DNA from: an uncultured Lachnospiraceae bacterium
GTDB taxonomy: Bacteria; Bacillota; Clostridia; Lachnospirales; Lachnospiraceae
Assembly: GCA_934359535.1 (NCBI GenBank)
Contig: CAKRLN010000013.1
Span: 1-17,346 of the forward strand
Length of the DNA stretch: 17,346 bases
Direction: 5' to 3'
The notes under the pieces are model-generated. The model was not told the origin of the DNA. It saw only the letters and a program-made list of their open reading frames with translations, and did not search any database. The translations under genes and the position numbers were made by a program. Shown here piece after piece: positions 7,920 through 16,439 of the stretch. Each line of letters begins with the position of its first letter. Within the stretch, counting starts at the first letter, position 1.

Positions 7920-9173
7920 TTAATTTCTATAATAGCGAAGCCCTCTTCCAGATCCCTTTTTACTGATAATCTGCTTTTCAAGTAACTGATTCAACACCCG
8001 GATTGTCTTATCTTTCGTAAATCCCGATGCCTTTTCCAGCTGCAGCCTCGCCATTGGATTTCCTGATTTTAATAAATCTAATAAGATTTTTTCTGCTTCT
8101 GTGTAACTTTCTGCTCCCTGAATGACTGGAAGTGTAATCTGTATGGAATTTTCAAAAAAATGAAACTGTGGTTTTACAACTGACTCCGCATACGCATGAT
8201 TGATACGAAGAATCCCTGTTCCAAATTTTTCAATATATTTCAGCCTAAAAAAAACATTTCCAAGTATCGGATTTCTCAATATGGAAACCTGTCCATTCAA
8301 ATACTCTTCTTCTCCCATTCCTTCCGGCAGGCCTCCTGGTGAAATAATCTCCATTCGATCTGTATACATACAGACCTTAATAGAAGCTTTTACATCCCAT
8401 GTACGATGCACCAGCGCATTTGCAATTGCTTCGCGAAATGCTTTTGCTGGTATTTTGTCAACAATCTCCCGTTTCGTGCCTTCTATCTTTTCATATTGAT
8501 AATAGGTTTGAAACATCTGTACACTTTGCTCCATCATTTGCAAAACTGATACCTTTTCTATGACTTTTCTTTCCATAATTTCATCAATGCTGTTGCCAAA
8601 CCGCACAATGTCCACACCTGGGAAGCCGTTCTGATCTGCAAGAAGCTCTGCTGCAATGTTAAATCCATCTTTATCCGTATACAATTCCAATGTCTTTAGA
8701 ATATCCTGATTCAATTTCCCGATTCCCATAACACGGATCAATTCCTGTTCCAATCTTTGAAAGGTCAACATCTGATTTCTTGCGGGAATCTCTTCATATG
8801 ATTGATCTCTTCCTGCCAAAACAAGCCTGTTATATTCCATTCTCCCAACTTCAATAGTCGCAGAATCATTTCTTTTGTATGCTTTTCCTTTATATAAATA
8901 TGGTTTGTACAATCCCTCTTCTACTGTAAGAACAACGGTTGTATCTTCCCGTATATCCAAAGAATACTCTGGCACTGGCTTAATGCTATCGTTAATCCGG
9001 TTTTCAAGATTCAGACATATTTCCTGTGGATCGGAAAATCCAACTACTTTTCCATCATCTGTAATTCCAAATATGATCTGTCCTCCTTCATAATTAGCAA
9101 ATGCACTTATTGTTTTCATATAGGTGGTGGAATGATCATTTTCTTTATACTCCGGATTTCTATTTTCCCTCAT
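7920..9173 (-). CDS. AlbA_2/Schlafen-domain putative transcriptional regulator with ATPase fold
   Basis: This 417-residue protein is of the family often labelled RecG-like helicase or ATP-binding regulator. The N-terminal AlbA_2 (Schlafen-type) domain starts at NPEYKENDHSTTYMKTISAF and continues with ANYEGGQIIFGI (27-38) and KPYLYKGKAYKRNDSAT (90-106). The middle is a divergent GHKL-type ATPase fold: FREAIANALVHRTW (246-259, with Glu248 and Asn252), DRMEIISPGGLP (272-283) and EKFGTGILRI (315-324). The C terminus (about 355-415) is a winged-helix-like domain. A perfect AGGAGG site precedes the ATG. No helicase motifs are present, so the RecG label would mislead. The promoter at 9218-9246 and paired dyads at 9244-9298 suggest autoregulation. 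Its other targets are unknown. Confidence 0.85.
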   Translation of the reverse strand: MRENRNPEYKENDHSTTYMKTISAFANYEGGQIIFGITDDGKVVGFSDPQEICLNLENRINDSIKPVPEYSLDIREDTTVVLTVEEGLYKPYLYKGKAYKRNDSATIEVGRMEYNRLVLAGRDQSYEEIPARNQMLTFQRLEQELIRVMGIGKLNQDILKTLELYTDKDGFNIAAELLADQNGFPGVDIVRFGNSIDEIMERKVIEKVSVLQMMEQSVQMFQTYYQYEKIEGTKREIVDKIPAKAFREAIANALVHRTWDVKASIKVCMYTDRMEIISPGGLPEGMGEEEYLNGQVSILRNPILGNVFFRLKYIEKFGTGILRINHAYAESVVKPQFHFFENSIQITLPVIQGAESYTEAEKILLDLLKSGNPMARLQLEKASGFTKDKTIRVLNQLLEKQIISKKGSGRGLRYYRN

Positions 9174-9217
9174 ATAATCCTCCTGCCTTTCCCAGTGTAG
9201 TACGTTTCTTTCCTTCC

Positions 9218-9246
9218 ATTATAGAATAGCAGTCCCAAACATGCAA
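9218..9246 (-). promoter_or_regulatory. Promoter of the AlbA_2-domain regulator
   Basis: On the minus strand TTGCAT (9246-9241) and TATAAT (9223-9218) are 17 bp apart, about 45 bp upstream of the ATG at 9173. The -35 overlaps the first dyad repeat by 3 bp, an arrangement that fits repression. Confidence 0.55.
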
Positions 9247-9298
9247 CGATTTTTCTTTTCGTTGTAGATCAAATCAAACGATTCTGTTTTTCGTTGCA
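9244..9298. repeat. Two 23-bp dyad repeats, likely operator pair
   Basis: Copies at 9244-9266 and 9276-9298 match at about 18 of 23 positions and start 32 bp apart, close to three helical turns. Each copy is itself an inverted repeat with arms (C)AACGA and TCGTT(G). The first touches the -35 of the regulator gene. This looks like a tandem operator on one face of the DNA. Confidence 0.55.
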
Positions 9299-9354
9299 TT
9301 CCGTTTGCATCGATTCTATGATATCCAATCCATTCGATTTTATTCCGCCCATAA

Positions 9355-9393
9355 CAATAGAAACCGGAAGAAGGACTTCTCCCTCTTCCGGTT
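9355..9393 (-). terminator. Flagellin gene terminator
   Basis: Read on the minus strand, AACCGGAAGA (9393-9384) pairs perfectly with TCTTCCGGTT (9371-9362), then comes a modestly T-rich tail. It lies 33 nt after the flagellin stop codon. Confidence 0.65.
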
Positions 9394-9425
9394 CCTGTAA
9401 AAATTTCTTATCAATGCATATATAA

Positions 9426-11054
9426 TTACTGAAGTAATGATAATACACCCTGGTTGGACTGGTTTGCCTGTGCAAGCATAGACTGACCTGCCTGTGCAAG
9501 AATGTTGTTCTTGCTGTAGTTTACCATCTCTTCTGCCATATCTGTGTCACGGATTGCTGACTCAGCGGATGTGGTGTTCTCAGAAATGTTATCCAGATTG
9601 CTGATTGTATGCTCCAGACGATTCTGAACAGCACCTAATTTACTTCTCTCTGCTGAAACTCTCTTAATTGCATCATCGATTGTTGTAGTAGCTTTCTGTG
9701 CTCCACTCTGAGTGCTTAAATCTACTTTTCCGGCACCAACACCTAAAGATTCTGCGCTCATATTATTAATTCCAAAGTTCATTGTCTGGCCTTCATTTGC
9801 ACCAATCTGAAGTGTAATTCCACCATTTGCTGCTGTCTTTGTAGATGCTGCATCAATACCAAGAGCCTTGGTCGCATCATTCGATAAGAAAGACAAGCTT
9901 CCGCTTGGACTGCTAAATACAAGACGGCCTTCACTTGTAGCTTCAACTGTTACATCCTCAATATATCCTTCATCACCTTTTGCTTTATTGGTATTTGCTG
10001 TTGCAATCGCAGTATTAATGTCAGTCTGCAGTTTAGTCGCAACGTCGGATAAATCCTCTGTATTTGCTGTGATAGCCTGAGCTGTTGATGCAGTGATAAC
10101 AGTTCCTCCAATATCAAAGGAAAACTTTGTGCCCGCTGTAATGGAATCTCCATTATACTTTGTTGTACCAGTTGTCTTAACACCAGCTGTAGCCGTTGTA
10201 CCATTTGTCATTTTTCCAACATAACCCGTATTATTTCCGCTGGTTATGCTCGCATCTGTCCCTGTTGAACCAGATTTAATTGTAAATGCACCTGTTCCAG
10301 CTGATGTTACCGACACAGAGCTTACATTGTAACCAGATTTTGAAATTGCATCATTAATCGCATTTTCCATGATTTCTGCTGCTTTTTTTGCATCATCTGT
10401 TGAAAAGTCTGTTCCAGCTGTTCCAGTCCATTTCTTCTTTAATGCAGCCTGATCGTCTGTTGATAATTTTGACCACTCAACCTTAACATCAACACCATCA
10501 ATGTTCATGGTTTCATCTGCCAATGTAAATGTAGACATATCTGCTGCTGTCGTAGTCACAGATGCTGCTGCTGTTTTTGCTACTACAGCACTTGTTGTTG
10601 TGTTTCCTGTTGTAGATACTCCTTTTGGTCCTGCCTGGCTTCCATCCAGTAACTTCATGGTGTTAAACTCTGTTGTATCGGAAATTCTTGTCAGCTCTTC
10701 CTGTAACTGTGAGATCTCGTTCTGTACAGATTCACGGTCATCATCTGTCTCCGTACCATTGGATGCCTGAACAGACAACTCTCTCATTCTCTGAAGAATA
10801 GACTGGGATTCATTTAAAGCACCTTCAGCAGTCTGAATCATGGAAATACCATCCTGCGCATTATCGGATGCTTTATTTAAACCACGGATCTGGCTTCTCA
10901 TTTTCTCAGAAATAGAAAGTCCTGCTGCATCATCTGCTGCACGGTTGATTTTATATCCGGAAGATAATTTCTCTGTTGATTTTGCCTGTGCTCCTGTTGT
11001 TACATTTAACATTCTGTTGGCATTCATTGCCTGTAAATTGTGTTGTACTACCAT
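9426..11054 (-). CDS. Flagellin
   Basis: This 542-residue flagellin forms the filament outside the cell. The N-terminal D0/D1 domain (1-about 140) is classic: MVVQHNLQAMNANRMLNV, LSSGYKINRAADDAAGLSIS, and the segment LQRMRELSVQASNG (87-100), which contains the D1 helix recognised by TLR5 in other flagellins. Residues about 145-420 are a Thr/Ala/Ser-rich variable domain exposed on the filament. The C-terminal D1/D0 domain (about 425-542) starts near MNFGINNMSAESLGV and ends in ILAQAGQSMLAQANQ and a typical LLQ terminus. There are no cysteines. GGAGG precedes the ATG by 7 nt within CATGGAGGTA. It follows csrA by 94 nt. I see no convincing sigma-28 promoter in that gap, so expression may depend on readthrough from upstream of csrA (inference). 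Confidence 0.95.
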   Translation of the reverse strand: MVVQHNLQAMNANRMLNVTTGAQAKSTEKLSSGYKINRAADDAAGLSISEKMRSQIRGLNKASDNAQDGISMIQTAEGALNESQSILQRMRELSVQASNGTETDDDRESVQNEISQLQEELTRISDTTEFNTMKLLDGSQAGPKGVSTTGNTTTSAVVAKTAAASVTTTAADMSTFTLADETMNIDGVDVKVEWSKLSTDDQAALKKKWTGTAGTDFSTDDAKKAAEIMENAINDAISKSGYNVSSVSVTSAGTGAFTIKSGSTGTDASITSGNNTGYVGKMTNGTTATAGVKTTGTTKYNGDSITAGTKFSFDIGGTVITASTAQAITANTEDLSDVATKLQTDINTAIATANTNKAKGDEGYIEDVTVEATSEGRLVFSSPSGSLSFLSNDATKALGIDAASTKTAANGGITLQIGANEGQTMNFGINNMSAESLGVGAGKVDLSTQSGAQKATTTIDDAIKRVSAERSKLGAVQNRLEHTISNLDNISENTTSAESAIRDTDMAEEMVNYSKNNILAQAGQSMLAQANQSNQGVLSLLQ

Positions 11055-11059
11055 TTGTA

Positions 11060-11087
11060 TACCTCCATGTTTTTACGTCACAAGTCC
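11060..11087 (-). promoter_or_regulatory. Flagellin leader with two GGA motifs, candidate CsrA target
   Basis: On the minus strand the leader has AATGGACTT (GGA at 11087-11085) and CATGGAGGTA (11069-11060), the second being the Shine-Dalgarno. In Bacillus subtilis hag, CsrA binds two GGA sites, one over the Shine-Dalgarno. The same CATGGAGGTA occurs before csrA. Binding itself is inference. Confidence 0.45.
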
Positions 11088-11121
11088 ATTTGCAACGTGT
11101 TCGTATTAATGATTTATAATA

Positions 11122-11147
11122 AAGCGGATGCCTAGGTTCATCTGCTT
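11122..11147 (-). terminator. Possible weak terminator between csrA and flagellin
   Basis: A stem with one mismatch or wobble (11146-11139 with 11130-11123, 8-nt loop) follows the csrA stop codon directly and leads into TTTATTATAAA on the minus strand. It may lower or process readthrough. The pairing is better on the plus strand. Confidence 0.3.
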
Positions 11148-11148
11148 A

Positions 11149-11457
11149 TTACCTGCTTTCCGGACGCATTGGGCGTCCTGCCCTGTAAACTGTTTTCCGT
11201 AACGGTTTTGTTTCTTCACATTTTTCCTTTTTCTTATATTTTTCCGGATGCTCCTCCTCGGCATAATACTTTGGCATTTTTGCGATCAGGTCCGGATCGC
11301 CAAGCCGCTTCTCAAGCGCCTTGCTTCTTGCAATCGAGACCTCCTTCGGGGCATCAATCATAATTCTGTGATGCTTCCCGGAGCCTCCGAGAAATACAAT
11401 CTTCACATCGTCCCCGATCATAATGTATTCTTCATTTTCTACCGAAAGTCTTAACAT
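11149..11457 (-). CDS. csrA: Divergent CsrA-family RNA-binding regulator with C-terminal extension
   Basis: This 102-residue protein's first 55 residues align with CsrA: MLRLS at the start, YIMIGDDVKI (11-20), LGGSGKHHRI (23-32) and APKEVSIARS (36-45). CsrA dimers bind GGA motifs in mRNA leaders and block translation; in Gram-positive bacteria flagellin is the main target. Here the paired arginines of the first strand (E. coli Arg6/Arg7) are Val6/Glu7, while Leu4 and the second RNA-contact arginine (Arg44) remain. About 40 extra residues, highly charged (EEEHPEKYKKKEKCEETKP), extend beyond the usual 55-75 aa. GGAGG lies 7 nt before the ATG; a longer open frame upstream has no supporting start. 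It sits directly upstream of flagellin. No fliW is present in the window. Confidence 0.8.
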   Translation of the reverse strand: MLRLSVENEEYIMIGDDVKIVFLGGSGKHHRIMIDAPKEVSIARSKALEKRLGDPDLIAKMPKYYAEEEHPEKYKKKEKCEETKPLRKTVYRAGRPMRPESR

Positions 11458-11462
11458 CGCTC

Positions 11463-11505
11463 TACCTCCATGCACTGACTGCCAGAAATTGGCAGCCCGG
11501 CTTCC
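11463..11505 (-). promoter_or_regulatory. csrA leader: hairpin and GGA motifs
   Basis: On the minus strand CAAGGAAG (GGA 11505-11503) is followed by a hairpin CTGCCA/TGGCAG (11495-11479) and then CATGGAGGTA (11472-11463), which serves as Shine-Dalgarno. The 10-mer is identical to that before flagellin. The layout suggests CsrA autoregulation (inference). Confidence 0.4.
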
Positions 11506-11518
11506 TTGCTTTTGTGAA

Positions 11519-11543
11519 GTAACAAAGTATATAATTCTGTTAC
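11519..11543. repeat. Left candidate recombination site (inverted relative to the right one)
   Basis: The site is GTAACAAAG-TATATAA-TTCTGTTAC on plus: two 9-bp arms around a 7-bp core, ending 61 bp upstream of the csrA ATG. It matches the reverse complement of 12735-12759 at 23 of 25 positions, with an identical core. Confidence 0.65.
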
Positions 11544-11675
11544 TTTTTATACGGACAGTATTCTCTGTAGCACAGCAGAAAACATAATGAATTACCGATG
11601 AATTATTTTTGTTAAAGTGACACTTTCTGAATGTGTGCTTTACAATGGGGTGAAAATTAGAAAAAATAAATAGAA

Positions 11676-11888
11676 TCGCCCTAAAAAGAAGCAATCCACA
11701 AAGAAACTCTTAAAAATATGGGCGAATTGATTGTGTAATATGAAAAATAGCCCTAATTTTAAAGAATTTTAGGGCGAATAAAGAAAAAAGACAACATATC
11801 GCCCAGATAGAGTATTATAAGCGCGATAGCTGCATGAATTTTAATAAAAATCGGGTTATTTTTAAACAGAACTTTAAAATTAGCCCTT
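11676..11888. repeat. Cluster of six GGGC(G/T)A-type motifs in AT-rich non-coding DNA
   Basis: This fills most of the non-coding stretch 11544-11900. Cores lie at 11678-11681 (-), 11720-11723 (+), 11750-11753 (-), 11772-11775 (+), 11801-11804 (-) and 11883-11886 (-), with a rough consensus AGGGCGAW. Neighbouring copies are often inverted, so several alternative hairpins could form (for example 11750 with 11775). They are conspicuous because the surrounding DNA is very AT-rich. The role is unknown; protein-binding sites or RNA structure are possible. Nothing else coding is seen in this stretch. Confidence 0.45.
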
Positions 11889-11900
11889 ATAGCATTTTAC

Positions 11901-12040
11901 ATGGTCGGATACAGACCTGAACCACTCAAATTCCAAAAAACCTGCCGCTGCATCACGGAGAACACCGGCTTGTCTATCCTATGGATACGAATGGGAATCT
12001 GATGATATATTCCTGCAAATTTCATTATGAAAATGCATAG
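11901..12040 (+). pseudogene. Short frameshifted relic reading frame
   Basis: From ATG 11901 the frame reads MVGYRPEPLKFQK. After the A6 run at 11935-11940 the protein-like sequence continues one frame over as NLPLHHGEHRLVYPMDTNGN and ends at TAG 12038-12040. Joined, this would be about 47 residues. I do not recognise it and there is no good ribosome binding site. It may be a decayed fragment or chance. Confidence 0.25.
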
Positions 12041-12049
12041 CCTTTCTAT

Positions 12050-12649
12050 CTATAAAATAATATCCCGGAACACCTCGTCCCTGTCATCCTGTTCAATTCC
12101 AAGATAACGGATCGTAATTTTATAAGAAGAATGATTGTAAATATTTGTGAGAAGTGCAGGTGAATAGCCCTGCTTCCATGCCTGATAGCCGAAGGTTTTC
12201 CGAAGGGAATGGCTGCTGACCGGCTGGTCGATCTGGCATTCCTCTGCTGCCTTTTTGATAATACGGAATGCCTGTATCCGTGAAATGGGCGCAGTCTTTG
12301 ACTTCTGTCCAAGGAAAATATACTGTTCTTCCATCACTTCCTTGGAACCGGTATTCTCTAACCGTTCCATGTAATACGGCGCAAGAGCCGCCCGGATATT
12401 ACGGTTTAGGAAAATGCGTGTCTGCTTTCCAGTCTTCTTTTCGCGGATATTCAGATGTGAACGATACTTACATGTGTGAAAATCATAAACATCCTTCCAT
12501 TTCAGCTTCAAAATATCCGAAATCCGGAGTGCAGTATTTAATCCAAGAATAATCAGTGCATGATTCCTGCGATTCGGGTTCACTTCTTTATAATATGCTT
12601 TCAATTTCTGTAAATCTGCCGTATCCCGGATCGGTTGTGCTGTGTTCAT
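12050..12649 (-). CDS. Short tyrosine recombinase (FimB/FimE-sized), candidate invertase
   Basis: This 199-residue tyrosine recombinase consists only of the catalytic domain, the size of FimB (200 aa) and FimE (198 aa). All active-site residues are visible: Arg42 (TALRISD), Lys72 (KKTGK), His147 and Arg150 (SHSLRKTF), His173 (YNHSS) and nucleophile Tyr182 (RYLGI). There is no N-terminal arm- or core-binding domain and no phage or conjugative gene nearby. That points to a local inversion system rather than an integrated element. I chose the ATG at 12649 with GGAAGGGG about 8 nt upstream; a TTG at 12670 is in frame. It lies inside the segment bounded by 11519-11543 and 12735-12759, which I propose as its substrates. 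Similar proteins are common in Lachnospiraceae, mostly of unproven function. Confidence 0.9.
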   Translation of the reverse strand: MNTAQPIRDTADLQKLKAYYKEVNPNRRNHALIILGLNTALRISDILKLKWKDVYDFHTCKYRSHLNIREKKTGKQTRIFLNRNIRAALAPYYMERLENTGSKEVMEEQYIFLGQKSKTAPISRIQAFRIIKKAAEECQIDQPVSSHSLRKTFGYQAWKQGYSPALLTNIYNHSSYKITIRYLGIEQDDRDEVFRDIIL

Positions 12650-12688
12650 CTCTTTTTCCCCTTCCAGCAAAAATTTTAAAAAAGGTGT

Positions 12689-12714
12689 TAAGTATTTTTC
12701 TATTCATCCGATAT
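12689..12714 (+). promoter_or_regulatory. Sigma-28 (FliA/SigD)-like promoter pointing away from csrA-flagellin
   Basis: TAAG (12689-12692), 14 bp, then TCCGATAT (12707-12714) closely fits the flagellar sigma consensus TAAA-N15-GCCGATAT. It lies 20 bp inside the right inverted site and reads rightwards. Inversion would aim it at csrA and flagellin. Confidence 0.6.
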
Positions 12715-12734
12715 AAATTGTGTAGACAAAGAAT

Positions 12735-12759
12735 GTAACAGAATTATATATTCTGTTAC
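12735..12759. repeat. Right candidate recombination site
   Basis: The site is GTAACAGAA-TTATATA-TTCTGTTAC on plus: perfect 9-bp inverted arms around a 7-bp core that is the reverse complement of the left-site core. A T6 run follows at 12760-12765, outside the segment. As RNA on the plus strand the site plus T run would also act as an intrinsic terminator just after the sigma-28 start. Confidence 0.65.
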
Positions 12760-12822
12760 TTTTTTATTGCCTGAATTTATAAATGCTACATATCGTTACT
12801 TTTTTCGACATATATGCAACAT

Positions 12823-12865
12823 CATATTAATATGTTCATTTCAAATATGCTACGTTACGTAGCAT
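12823..12865. repeat. Two perfect palindromes upstream of a small gene
   Basis: CATATTAATATG (12823-12834) and a 19-bp inverted repeat with 9-bp arms ATGCTACGT/ACGTAGCAT (12847-12865) lie before the 38-residue gene. The second is followed by CTTATTTTT, so it might be an attenuator hairpin (ATGCTAC, loop GTTAC) or an operator. A related ATGCTAC...GTTAC occurs at 12783-12799. Confidence 0.45.
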
Positions 12866-12909
12866 CTTATTTTTGTTTCCAATTATTTAGGAATGCACGG
12901 GAAAAATCA

Positions 12910-13026
12910 ATGATAAATACCACACTTGAAAAAGAAATGCTTTATTACTTTGGGCAGCTTTCTGCCGAAGACAAAAGAGAAATGATCGAATTTACAAAGA
13001 TCAAAGCGCGTAAGCATAAAAAATAA
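12910..13026 (+). CDS. Small 38-residue protein, unknown function
   Basis: From ATG 12910 the protein is charged and helical: MINTTLEKEMLYYFGQLSAE, then DKREMIEFTKIKARKHKK. It resembles the short C-terminal tail seen after some helix-turn-helix regulators, but it has no DNA-binding helix of its own, so no function is assigned. The frame is open further upstream (to 12814), but that part runs through palindromic DNA and has no ribosome binding site. The chosen start has only a modest GGGA 7 nt upstream. A terminator hairpin follows the stop by 3 nt, which supports a real gene. In the current orientation the sigma-28-like promoter points towards it. Confidence 0.45.
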   Translation: MINTTLEKEMLYYFGQLSAEDKREMIEFTKIKARKHKK

Positions 13027-13029
13027 AAC

Positions 13030-13057
13030 CCAGACCTTGGGGGGTGGTCTGGATTTT
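13030..13057 (+). terminator. Intrinsic terminator after the 38-residue gene
   Basis: CCAGACC (13030-13036) pairs with GGTCTGG (13046-13052) around a G-rich 9-nt loop, followed by ATTTT. Confidence 0.6.
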
Positions 13058-13097
13058 ATAAAGGAGTTATGAAAAAGATTATGAAAAAAAATTATTG

Positions 13098-13126
13098 TTT
13101 TATGTCCTTTCGACATGTTCTATAAT
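13098..13126 (+). promoter_or_regulatory. Candidate promoter for the 59-residue gene
   Basis: A perfect TATAAT lies at 13121-13126. The -35 is poor (TTTTAT at 17 bp spacing, or TTGTTT at 20 bp). It would give a leader of about 115 nt for the gene at 13250. Confidence 0.35.
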
Positions 13127-13249
13127 AAAGAGGAAATGTGAAAAAACCGTGTTTGAAAAATTAACAATATATGAAAAAATATGGAAATATCTGTTCACAA
13201 ATAACTGAATACTTATGTTCATACATAAAAGAAAGGAGCCCATACAATC

Positions 13250-13429
13250 ATGTGGAAAGTAAAACAGATTTTTGATGGAGAATATGGATGCGAGGAACGT
13301 ATGCCCGGAGAAAAGACAAAATGCCTGGTCACGCTCATTGATGAAAATGGTCACACCAAAAGCCTGAACGTCGAAGATGCCTGGCTGACCGATCATGGAA
13401 TTGTTGAAGGAAGTGTATGGCCGGAATAA
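13250..13429 (+). CDS. Conserved-looking 59-residue small protein
   Basis: ATG 13250 to TAA 13429 encodes 59 residues. It begins MWKVKQIFDGEYGCEERMPG, continues with a beta-rich stretch TKCLVTLIDENGHTKSLNVE, and ends with DHGIVEGSVWPE. AAAGGAG lies 11 nt upstream, slightly long spacing. The balanced, soluble composition and an ending on a full codon context make it a credible gene. I believe similar small proteins occur in related gut Firmicutes, but I cannot confirm this here. No known domain is recognised; the Trp- and Gly-rich pattern suggests a small beta barrel-like fold. It stands alone between two terminators. Confidence 0.65.
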   Translation: MWKVKQIFDGEYGCEERMPGEKTKCLVTLIDENGHTKSLNVEDAWLTDHGIVEGSVWPE

Positions 13430-13470
13430 CTATTTTTCTATTATGCAAAACTTTCTCTTAGAAAATATAG

Positions 13471-13548
13471 ATCATATCGTTTATTGTCACTGTTATGGCT
13501 GGTGTGGTTTGCCACCTCATCAACAAATGGTTAGACGGAGACAAATAG
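13471..13548 (+). pseudogene. Possible relic of a tiny hydrophobic toxin-like peptide
   Basis: The frame after TAG 13468-13470 reads IISFIVTVMAGVVCHLINKW, then LDGDK and a stop at 13546-13548. A hydrophobic helix ending in KWLDGDK resembles very short membrane peptides common in gut Firmicutes, some treated as type I toxin-like. No ATG precedes the hydrophobic part: the only ATG (13495) falls inside it, and a stop sits directly upstream. It therefore looks start-less or decayed. A strong terminator follows at 13600-13634. Confidence 0.3.
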
Positions 13549-13599
13549 TTGGCAGCTAGCCTATGGGCTTAAGCCTTCCCATTGCCAAAATTAGGAATA

Positions 13600-13634
13600 A
13601 AAAAGCCGAAGGTCTCGCACACCTTCGGCTTTTT
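13600..13634. terminator. Bidirectional intrinsic terminator
   Basis: A 9-bp stem GCCGAAGGT/ACCTTCGGC (13605-13613 with 13621-13629) has a 7-nt loop and is flanked by A5 on the left and T5 on the right. It can end transcripts from both sides: the small + genes and the serine hydrolase gene on -. Confidence 0.85.
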
Positions 13635-13722
13635 GTTACCAATGAAAGATAACTCTCATATCGTTTGCCTACTGGCATTATAGCATATACAATATGCAAA
13701 TTTCTGTTCTTCTTTACCATAA

Positions 13723-14909
13723 TTACAGTAGCGCACCAAGTGCAATATTCCGGATCTTTCTTGTAAGTGAAAACGTTCCGGCATCCTTTTTCTGGGTTCC
13801 AATCAGAATTGTAAGCTTCTCCTTCGGGAAATTGGCAAAATACATGCCAAGCCAGCCATCCCAGCCGTATTCCCCATAGGCACACAGATTCTTGTGCCGC
13901 TCCGGCTCTACACATCTGCGCATCAGATTGCTGTAGGTAAATCCATCGAGTCCGATCCAGTGCTGTAGCTCGGCATCCTGATGTGGAAGCAGACGTCCCT
14001 CTGTCAGATAACGAACTGTTTTTCCTGAAGGATCTGCGCGCTGCCATAGCTTCCACCATTTAACAGCATCTGCGCAAACTTCATATAATCATCCAGTGTC
14101 GATACAAGTCCCGCACCACCTGCCTCATATGCCGGTGCCTTGTCCATCGCATTGTTGATTGCAAGATGATGACCGGTATAGCGGATCATTTTCTTATCTC
14201 CATCCTCCGTTACAGTCTCATAGGTCATCGCAAGACGGTTCTGCTTCTCCTTCGGAACCCAGAATGCGGTATCTTCCATTTCAAGCGGAAGAAAAATCTC
14301 TTCCTTTAGAAATTCCGAAAATTTCTTCCCGGAGACCGCCTCAATCACCGCGCCAAGCACATCTGCTGATGTACCATACTGCCACAGGCTCCCCGGTGCA
14401 AATGCCAGAGGGCCTTCTGCAAGACGGTTCACAAGCTCCATCGTTGTCATCGGATTTTCACTGCCAAGACGCGCAACAGCCTCATCAAAGACCTTCCCGG
14501 ATGCTCTTCCGGCTTCCGTCAGCTCATCCGGATAAGAAAGCCCGGAGGTCATGCAGAGTAAATCATGGAGCATCACCGGACGCCCCGGTGTCTTAAGAAT
14601 TCCATCCTCATATACCTTCTGTCCTGCAAATGCCGGAAGAATATCACAAACAGGCTGATACAGCTCAATTTCCCCGCGTTCTAAGAGCAGCATAACCGCC
14701 GCTGCCGTGACTGGCTTTGTCATCGAATACAGACGGAAAATCGTATCCCGCGCAATCGGTCTTCCTGTTTCCCTGTCTGCAAATCCTTCCCCGCAGTACA
14801 AAACCTCTTTGCCATCCTTTCGGGCAAGAAAATTGACGCCCATAACATCATGACCGTCAATTGCTTTATTCATCGCTCTTCTTAAATTCTTTTCTAATTC
14901 CTGATACAT
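13723..14909 (-). pseudogene. Serine hydrolase (beta-lactamase/S12 family), frameshifted
   Basis: The protein is a class C beta-lactamase-like serine hydrolase of the kind annotated as EstB-like esterase or D-aminopeptidase/PBP4*-like. Numbered from the first in-frame ATG at 14960, the catalytic SMTK is at 79-82 and the second motif YGTS at 195-198. The first frame stops at 14004 after QILQEKQFVI. A one-base shift at the A5 run (complement of 14019-14023) restores the expected continuation TVRYLTEGRLLPHQDAELQH and the family C-terminal block EYGWDGWLGMYFANFPKEKL, ending at 13723. One deleted A explains everything, so it is a recent inactivation, a phase-variable tract or a sequencing error. 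I use ATG 14909 (MYQELEKN); ATG 14960 has a better but distant AGGAG. The role of the intact protein is unknown. Confidence 0.8.
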
Positions 14910-14933
14910 CGGAAACCCCCGCTTTCTATCATA

Positions 14934-14992
14934 GGTAACGCTTATGATGCTTTCCATCATAATACGTCAGTCTCCTGATTGCAAGCGTTACC
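14934..14992. repeat. 10-bp perfect inverted repeat around the hydrolase leader
   Basis: GGTAACGCTT (14934-14943) and AAGCGTTACC (14983-14992) are perfect inverted repeats 39 bp apart, enclosing a smaller ATGATG/CATCAT hairpin and the AGGAG site. The right arm overlaps the stop codon of the ABC ATPase gene. There is no T run. It may protect or attenuate the ABC transcript, or control translation of the hydrolase. Confidence 0.5.
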
Positions 14993-15773
14993 CCTGCGCA
15001 TAGCGGGTTAAAAACTGCTTTGTCCTTTCTTCCTTCGGATGATCAATTACCTCATGCGGATCGCCCTGCTCCACAATCACACCACCATCCATAAAAATGA
15101 CCTGATCTGCAACGTCCCTTGCAAATGCCATCTCATGTGTGACTATAATCATCGTCGTTTTCTGTTCTGCAAGTGTACGGATGACCTTTAACACTTCTCC
15201 TGTCAGCTCCGGATCAAGTGCAGAGGTCGGCTCGTCAAAGCATAAAATATCCGGTTTCAGTGCAAGTGCACGCGCGATCGCAACCCTCTGCTGCTGTCCA
15301 CCGGAAAGCTGATGCGGATAATGATCCATACGCTCGGAAAGTCCCATACGTGTCAGAAGCTCTTTTCCGTGCTCTTCGATCTGCTCTAAAACAGCCTTTT
15401 TGTTCTGCTTGTAATCCGGTTTTTCCTGTGCCAAAAGCCGTTCGGCAAGTGTCACATTCTCAAGTGCCGTATACTGCGGAAACAGATTGAAGGACTGGAA
15501 TACCATACCAAAATGCAGGCGTTTTTTGCGAAGCTCCGCATCCCTGTCTGCGCTGGCATCTGCCACATCAAAAAGCGTCTCTCCATTTACACAGATGCGT
15601 CCGGAGTCCGGCTTTTCGAGAAAGTTTAAGCAGCGCAGAAGCGTTGTTTTTCCGGAACCGGAGGAGCCGATAATCGCAAGTGCAGTCCCCTCCTCCATGG
15701 AAAAGCTGACATCCTTTAGGACATTCGTTTTCCCAAAATGTTTTTCAATATGTGATACCTCTAAAATCGCCAT
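14988..15773 (-). CDS. Polar amino acid-type ABC transporter ATPase
   Basis: This 261-residue cytoplasmic ATPase energises the importer. Walker [10 protein letters not shown] is at 36-44, the signature LSGGQ at 156-160, Walker B ILCFDEP around 176-182, and the switch histidine at His213 (VTHEMAF). Overall it matches the GlnQ/HisP/ArtP group, which power amino-acid uptake. Compared with GlnQ (about 240 aa) it has a small charged insertion after the first lobe strands ([13 protein letters not shown]) and another near 118-135 ([16 protein letters not shown]). A perfect AGGAGG precedes the ATG, 9 nt after the permease stop, so it is the last gene of a three-gene operon. The substrate is set by the binding protein. 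Confidence 0.93.
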
Positions 15774-15782
15774 GGCTGCCTC

Positions 15783-16439
15783 CTACTTAAAATAATCCAG
15801 TCTGCGTTCAATATAGTTAAACAGCAGCGTAAGAAGTCCAACAAAGACCAGATAAAATACACCGGTATAGAAAAGCGGCCAGGTCAGTCCATCGGATTTC
15901 ATAAATGCTGCACCCGCAAAGGTCAGCTCATACGCAGCAATAATACGCGCAAGTGAGGTGTCCTTTACCAGTGTAATGATCTCATTCGACATTGGCGGAA
16001 CAACACGCTTAATCATCTGAAGCAGCGTAATCTTAAAAAAGATCTGGCTCTTTGTCATACCAAGCACCTGTCCAGCCTCTCTCTGCCCAGCCGGAACGCC
16101 CTCAATGCCTCCACGGAAGATTACGGAAAAATAGCATGCATAATTAATCACAAAGGCAACAACCGTAGCCGTGATACGTCCCGCTTCATTTCCACTCCAG
16201 ATTGTTCTGTGAAGCCAGAGTCCCGGCCCATAGAAAATAATGATAAGCTGTAACATAAGCGGTGTTCCACGGATCACCCATACAAGCACCTGAATCAGTC
16301 CGCGCAGCGGTTTAAACCGGCTTAAGAGACCTCCAGCAAGCAGAAGGCCAAGCGGCAGTGCAAAGATTAATGTAAGTATAAAAATTTCAAATGTCGTTGC
16401 AAGACCTCCAAGCAGCGACTGTGTTACTGTCCAGAACAT
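15783..16439 (-). CDS. Polar amino acid-type ABC transporter permease
   Basis: This 218-residue membrane permease is of the HisM/GlnP type. It has about five hydrophobic segments and the conserved cytoplasmic EAA-like loop GVPAGQREAGQVLGMTKSQI (about 124-143), which docks on the ATPase. Only one permease gene is present, so it should act as a homodimer. Its ATG lies 4 nt after the stop of the binding-protein gene, with AGGAG at the end of that gene acting as ribosome binding site. The pair is translationally coupled. The short length (218 aa) is normal for this subfamily. Confidence 0.92.
   Translation of the reverse strand: MFWTVTQSLLGGLATTFEIFILTLIFALPLGLLLAGGLLSRFKPLRGLIQVLVWVIRGTPLMLQLIIIFYGPGLWLHRTIWSGNEAGRITATVVAFVINYACYFSVIFRGGIEGVPAGQREAGQVLGMTKSQIFFKITLLQMIKRVVPPMSNEIITLVKDTSLARIIAAYELTFAGAAFMKSDGLTWPLFYTGVFYLVFVGLLTLLFNYIERRLDYFK

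Follow-up and report, generated by a model that had tools for sequence, protein, structure and literature searches.

A probable promoter-inversion switch upstream of a csrA-like gene and flagellin in an uncultured Lachnospiraceae bacterium

Positions 11519–12759 of the window, that is the whole 17,346-nucleotide stretch of DNA from an uncultured Lachnospiraceae bacterium that was analysed, probably constitute a self-contained phase switch in which inversion of a promoter would control a csrA-like gene and the flagellin gene that follows it. The capability of the segment to invert appears well supported by its recombination sites and by comparison with related loci, ON/OFF control of csrA and flagellin is the natural reading of the arrangement and would follow from it, and inversion may also occur in the strain from which the window derives. 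Our confidence in the switch is slightly lowered because the breakpoint on the far side of the segment is only bracketed. The region contains the following features:

9426–11054, minus strand: flagellin gene, 542 aa, presumably the controlled gene (PF00669 2.1e-43, PF00700 2.4e-29)
11149–11457, minus strand: csrA-like gene of 102 aa, the nearest gene on the downstream side of the putative switch (PF02599 2.1e-17; start codon checked)
11519–11543, no strand: proximal recombination site, two arms of 9 bp around the core TATATAA (paired-site analysis)
11544–12049, no strand: stretch of about 500 bp in which no gene was recognised, from the recombinase stop to the proximal site
12050–12649, minus strand: tyrosine recombinase, 199 aa, clade A (PF00589 1.3e-24; grouped in the tree with a clade that has 17 rows and a support of 100/99)
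12688–12715, plus strand: sigma-D/sigma-28 promoter motif TTAAGTATTTTTCTATTCATCCGATATA, PWM score 29.5, pointing away from csrA (OFF)
12735–12759, no strand: distal recombination site, opposite in orientation to the proximal site and with an identical core (paired-site analysis)

Each of the two 25-bp sites is an imperfect palindrome with two 9-bp arms around a 7-bp core, the proximal one reading GTAACAAAG-TATATAA-TTCTGTTAC and the distal one, when reverse-complemented, GTAACAGAA-TATATAA-TTCTGTTAC, and as inverted repeats they match at 23 of 25 positions. The pair is the top inverted repeat in a repeat search of positions 9000–16000 (30 nt at 90%, 11517–11546 against 12732–12761), compared with 77% only when the pair is taken as a direct repeat. 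None of 150 dinucleotide shuffles of positions 11001–13300 gave a 25-mer pair matching at 23/25, the best shuffle reaching 22, once. Judged by the window alone the site pair is unusual, not overwhelming in AT-rich DNA, and its reality is settled by its conservation across genomes. The segment is 1241 bp long and contains both the recombinase and the promoter motif. The csrA ATG is located at 11457, 61 bp from the left (proximal) site, and csrA and then flagellin are encoded on the same strand. In most of the clade A units displayed, roughly 6–110 bp separate the recombinase stop from the proximal site, compared with about 500 bp in the window, and long gaps are also present in L058 and L005. 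Near the flagellin end, positions 7920–9173 of the window encode a protein with Schlafen AlbA_2 and RecG-C-like HATPase_c_4 domains.

The recombinase frame is intact and encodes 199 aa from an ATG or 206 from a TTG, with PF00589 (1.3e-24) as its sole Pfam match. R, K, HxxR, H and Y, which we take to be the catalytic residues, were found by reading its sequence, and the protein aligns with XerA 5hxy; the NCBIfam DNA-invertase models match it only under the model cut-offs. An earlier note, made from the letters of the window, had described the two 25-bp sites at their positions with core and 23/25 match, their inverted rather than direct pairing, a recombinase between them with all six catalytic residues, and a left site 61 bp from the csrA ATG with flagellin next, and all of this agrees with the sequence, the repeat search, the Pfam matches, the XerA alignment and the start codon check. 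In a tree of 90 recombinase units the window is placed inside a clade of 17 with a support of 100/99, in which the recombinase is divergent from the promoter, and in the other csrA-linked units the recombinase is mostly co-directional with the promoter. Internal stops were flagged in three distinct recombinase matches (G005:C61, G041 and G241) in the genome searches that included the genus of Roseburia porci and its family, and in none of the 30 matches listed from a search of the genus of G002 with the recombinase of locus L040.

Related units were collected by several searches, and the loci are the best matches of each search and no census. The window recombinase gave 27 loci in a scan of GTDB representative contigs, and in whole genomes it had matches, at E<=1e-40, in 25 of the 62 genomes belonging to the genus of Roseburia porci and in 27 of 397 genomes of the family of that species, part of a larger group, at 1e-50. 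With the L072 recombinase as query there were matches in 16 of 397 genomes of the same family, again part of a larger group, at 1e-60, and with the L040 recombinase in 19 of 61 genomes of the genus of G002, likewise part of a larger group, at 1e-50. After removal of repeats there are 116 distinct recombinase units, 87 of them with csrA within 2.5 kb, counts that include related species and several units per genome, the units being non-independent. For the other 29 the stretch covered shows no csrA within 2.5 kb, and some are cut by a contig or locus end, as L092 and also L069, for which csrA is present in the longer locus L193. Relatives of the cassette are present in many other Lachnospiraceae genomes, with up to four recombinase units per genome (G002, G011), not all of them on flagellin.

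The promoter motif of the window has the form TTAA N16 CCGATAT, is located 19 bp from the distal site and is directed out through it, and the consensus for sigma-D/sigma-28 is printed as TAAA N15-17 CCGATAT in the available text of PMC3720852. The position weight matrix derives from 46 strict matches in the vicinity of these recombinases and both strands were scanned; no other match in the 17-kb window scores above 12, and TAAA-N16-CCGATAT recurs beside the distal site in intergenic stretches of related loci. Exactly one sigma-D match above 14 is found in 83 of the 87 csrA-linked units and none in the remaining four, compared with 0/87 after dinucleotide shuffling, one shuffle each. The end of the -10 region is spaced from the next site by a median of 19 bp (quartiles 18–20, n=81), and this rigid spacing is our argument that the promoter should be part of the switch. 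By arithmetic (x -> 24278-x), inversion would turn the motif towards csrA and bring it to 11563–11590, leaving about 105 bp between the -10 end and the csrA ATG. The invertible segment proposed earlier is supported, with promoter inversion through the sigma-D motif, which had been overlooked, as its probable mechanism.

A pair of sites can be aligned in 80 of the 87 csrA-linked units, and was not obtained in seven (L011, L026, L039, L066, L076, L089 and L180), where L026 is a clade A member with its recombinase against csrA. The six central positions are identical in all 80 pairs, and the arms are on average 90% identical. With equal freedom of shift, the 7-bp core is identical in 73/80 pairs when inverted, in 1/80 when direct, and in 63/6320 comparisons between units; the pairs were picked by their best inverted match, which somewhat inflates the contrast of inverted to direct, and much less that of within to between units. 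There are 64 different 7-bp centres among the 80 pairs. Cores that are alike within units and different between them are what would be expected as a signature of recombination if the exchange needs matching cores and continues. In L039 (G011:C20, 2280–2411) no distal site was found next to the promoter, where another inverted-repeat sequence is located instead, and this unit may be locked OFF.

The promoter points away from csrA (OFF) in 81 of 83 promoter-bearing units and toward it (ON) in two, L040 and L072, and inversion is therefore rare in what gets assembled. Among the OFF units the recombinase is directed with csrA in 16 and against csrA in 65, and the constant feature is the promoter direction, not the recombinase direction. 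The orientation of the recombinase was rejected as a marker for ON and OFF; it follows the clade and had suggested that there is no inversion, and the promoter direction resolved the matter. Of the 21 contig ends found at most 1.5 kb from a defined repeat pair, 15 are no further than 500 bp away; contig ends were not used as a sign of mixed populations, since neighbouring repeated flagellin sequence can break contigs too. P0001 encodes a recombinase 97% identical to that of the window on a contig of 1246 bp, where the segment length is 1241–1245 bp, and a contig of this length is as expected from an assembler meeting both orientations, which is only a hint.

Both orientations of the segment are seen, across species, when one orthologous locus is compared among three related genomes, with the far breakpoint bracketed only. 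Two pairs of loci represent the ON units, L072/L198, which is intact, and L040/L195, which is degenerate. When L198 (G037, ON) is compared by blastn with L197 (Roseburia sp. RGIG9039, OFF), the far flank matches in one orientation over 2996 bp at 79%, and csrA (301 bp), two portions of the flagellin region and, at a different spacing, a 564-bp piece beyond them match in the same orientation, whereas 590 bp of the recombinase and 55 bp that extend into the site are in the opposite orientation. In the comparison of L196 (G007, OFF) with L198 the far flank and csrA are forward and 691 bp of the segment are reversed. The forward and reverse matches overlap inside the proximal site, which gives the breakpoint on the csrA side. 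Neither blastn nor tblastx gave an alignment from the distal site to the far flank, for about 2.5 kb in L198, 2.1 kb in L197 and 0.9 kb in L196, and because this stretch is unaligned the breakpoint on the far side is only bracketed. The earlier note had suggested that relatives be compared for flipped assemblies, and a reversed segment is indeed present in L198 relative to L197 and L196; at the window locus only the OFF orientation was seen. In the degenerate pair, 776 bp of the segment of L195 (G002:C13, 5929–8469, ON) match L194 (OFF) at 77.8% in one orientation, and the opposite orientation holds for csrA (212 bp) and for 49 bp at the far site. The csrA match of L195 is short and flagellin is absent, with genes for a LicD-type protein and a cytidylyltransferase following, and the switch may here have been handed over to a surface-glycan cluster. 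L040 was at first taken as the main ON example, and was demoted to a secondary one as the flagellin is missing.

In the mechanism that we propose the tyrosine recombinase would recombine the two inverted sites by exchange in the identical core, by which the segment would flip. In the OFF state, as can be read from the sequence, the sigma-D motif faces out of the segment across the distal site and away from csrA; a flip should place the promoter with its -10 end about 105 bp before the csrA ATG, where csrA and flagellin would be transcribed together with the late flagellar genes (ON). The usual state would be OFF, with the switched flagellin as a reserve turned on in a minority of cells, and the filament would be supplied by other flagellin genes with fixed sigma-D promoters.

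Inversion might occur on evolutionary time scales only, with populations effectively fixed OFF and no working phase-variation switch in living cells, as could be read from the 81/83 promoter-bearing units in one state and from the single intact ON unit (L072/L198) beside one that is degenerate. A default-OFF bet-hedging switch would give the same look in assemblies, and with cores that are identical within units and differ between units, and recombinase frames that are mostly open, we regard this explanation as unlikely. It could also be that the switch is two-sided and that the promoter in its present orientation drives a gene on the far side, since it is directed outward and short plus-strand ORFs (12814–13026 and 13250–13429, both without a Pfam match) are located beyond the distal site. 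The far-side ORFs of the units compared are on either strand and of variable size, which makes a two-sided switch very unlikely, and a far-side gene as the real target was rejected because there is no consistent arrangement across units.

The nearly constant orientation of the recombinase within clades would fit with sites that the recombinase binds as operators or structural elements, without any inversion. This is highly improbable when the asymmetric cores match inverted in 73/80 and direct in 1/80 of the pairs, a contrast somewhat inflated by the way the pairs were picked, and when an orthologous locus has the segment reversed, the breakpoint next to csrA falling in the site. An integrated mobile element, with att sites upstream of csrA by chance, might be suggested by a recombinase of the phage integrase family PF00589 and by the 29/116 units without csrA within 2.5 kb, partly through stretch or contig ends, but it is extremely improbable as the sites are inverted, not direct, the position next to csrA recurs in 87/116 units, and no relative was found in the IMG/VR viral contigs at the sensitivity of the scan. 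A phase switch by promoter inversion is the reading that we prefer.

The units vary in their build. The recombinase is located just outside the promoter-bearing segment in the variants of G048 (L063/L109) and G018 (L193, on a 3.4-Mb contig); in L193 this segment is about 2.2 kb. L130 (G008, R. inulinivorans) has a promoter-only segment, where the locus ends within the second site and no recombinase is present on the stretch. Recombinases of the same family in L097, L099, L022 and L078 are found beside glycosyltransferase, chemotaxis receptor, tRNA modification and oxidoreductase genes, and are possible switches of other functions; L022, L078 and L097 have inverted sites, yet without a sigma-D match.

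Nine genomes have 6 to 15 flagellin-like matches each, split pieces counted, and 30 of these were examined as loci. Eight distinct loci among them have flagellin without csrA or recombinase, and in seven of these the motif faces the flagellin (L114, L118, L119, L120, L121, L129 and L134, with L136 repeating L120), the exception being L132, the second of a tandem, with no sigma-D motif. There are five csrA–flagellin pairs without a recombinase in the locus; the motif faces the flagellin in L131 and faces away, between two sites, in L130, and L122, L133 and L138 show no sigma-D match above 12. These three have a GACGATATA-like element upstream of csrA, and are perhaps fixed relatives of the switched units. 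Since the placement of the motif differs among flagellin loci of the same genomes, fixed and switched flagellins appear to coexist.

By length and N-terminus, the flagellin of L010 is ROSEINA2194_00549, that of L130 is 02155 and that of L138 is 01473, the strains DSM 16841 and A2-194 presumably being the same. In six Eubacterium and Roseburia species no promoter, or a weak one at best, was found for several flagellin genes according to the available text of Neville et al. (PMC3720852), in which the flagellin band of R. inulinivorans A2-194 cultures is assigned to ROSEINA2194_00549, a sigma-43 and a poor sigma-28 promoter are proposed for flagellins 00549 and 02155, and ROSEINA2194_01473 is given no promoter. 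An OFF-facing sigma-28 promoter would explain that no good promoter was detected in that work for 00549 and 02155, not for 01473. L010 is assembled OFF despite the culture band assigned to its flagellin, and either ON cells were present in the culture, or the OFF state is not silent or there is a second promoter, such as the proposed sigma-43 one. The candidate ROSEINA2194_01473 as the switched flagellin was wrong, L010 matching 00549 and 01473 (L138) having no switch unit here.

In Salmonella, Hin is helped by Fis, HU and an enhancer, and fljA represses fliC. The invertible segment at fljBA holds Hin and the promoter of the flagellin operon according to the text available from PMC9368917, and Hin is described as a serine recombinase in that of PMC11868660. 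The window is alike in having recombinase and promoter inside the flipping segment and a flagellin operon with a flagellar regulator that would be switched, and differs in its tyrosine recombinase with palindromic sites, in csrA preceding the flagellin where Salmonella has fljA in the operon, and in the up to four recombinase units per genome (G002, G011), not all on flagellin. The only Pfam match is PF00589, not a serine recombinase of the Hin type, and because the enzyme family differs the window switch is not a member of that type, yet it would share the working principle of the Hin segment. The earlier note had seen a distinct design in a recombinase inside a flipping flagellin segment, which has to be withdrawn, as the Salmonella Hin segment already has this, with an unrelated serine recombinase.

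RecV of C. difficile is encoded outside the flagellar switch segment, and at fimS of E. coli small tyrosine recombinases, also encoded outside the segment, invert a promoter that controls fimbriae. In the text available from PMC5386303, which also mentions fimS with FimB/FimE, the C. difficile flagellar switch is a 154-bp segment in the leader of the flgB operon, with 21-bp inverted repeats and RecV, which also acts on the cwpV switch. A tyrosine recombinase, inverted repeats and motility control in a clostridial organism are common to this switch and the window, whereas 154 bp is too short for a recombinase and the window segment of 1241 bp contains recombinase and promoter motif, and the target is an early flagellar operon there and one flagellin here. 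The fimS switch shares with the window the small tyrosine recombinase and promoter inversion, and differs in its recombinases outside the segment and in the control of fimbriae. PhaseFinder and PhaVa invertons of gut bacteria, obtained by genome scanning, are likewise DNA inversion switches, many of them with promoters (available text of PMC11868660). With a catalytic domain, inverted sites of identical core and a promoter motif beside a site, the window has the parts of a tyrosine-recombinase promoter-inversion system. No listing in the open literature, inverton catalogues of supplements or closed journals apart, was about invertible csrA–flagellin units by its title or the start of its abstract.

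Roseburia-like commensals have flagellins that act as pro-inflammatory antigens, according to the available text of PMC3720852. We tentatively suggest, as a possibility somewhat short of even, that motile Lachnospiraceae carry modular reserve flagellins, each with a default-OFF sigma-D switch and a private recombinase and core; independent flips of several such units per genome might then give combinatorial variation of the filament towards host TLR5, IgA or phage, with the OFF bias built into recombination or its regulation. The switch would represent a convergence with that of Salmonella Hin through an unrelated enzyme, and flagellin phase variation in these commensals becomes directly testable.
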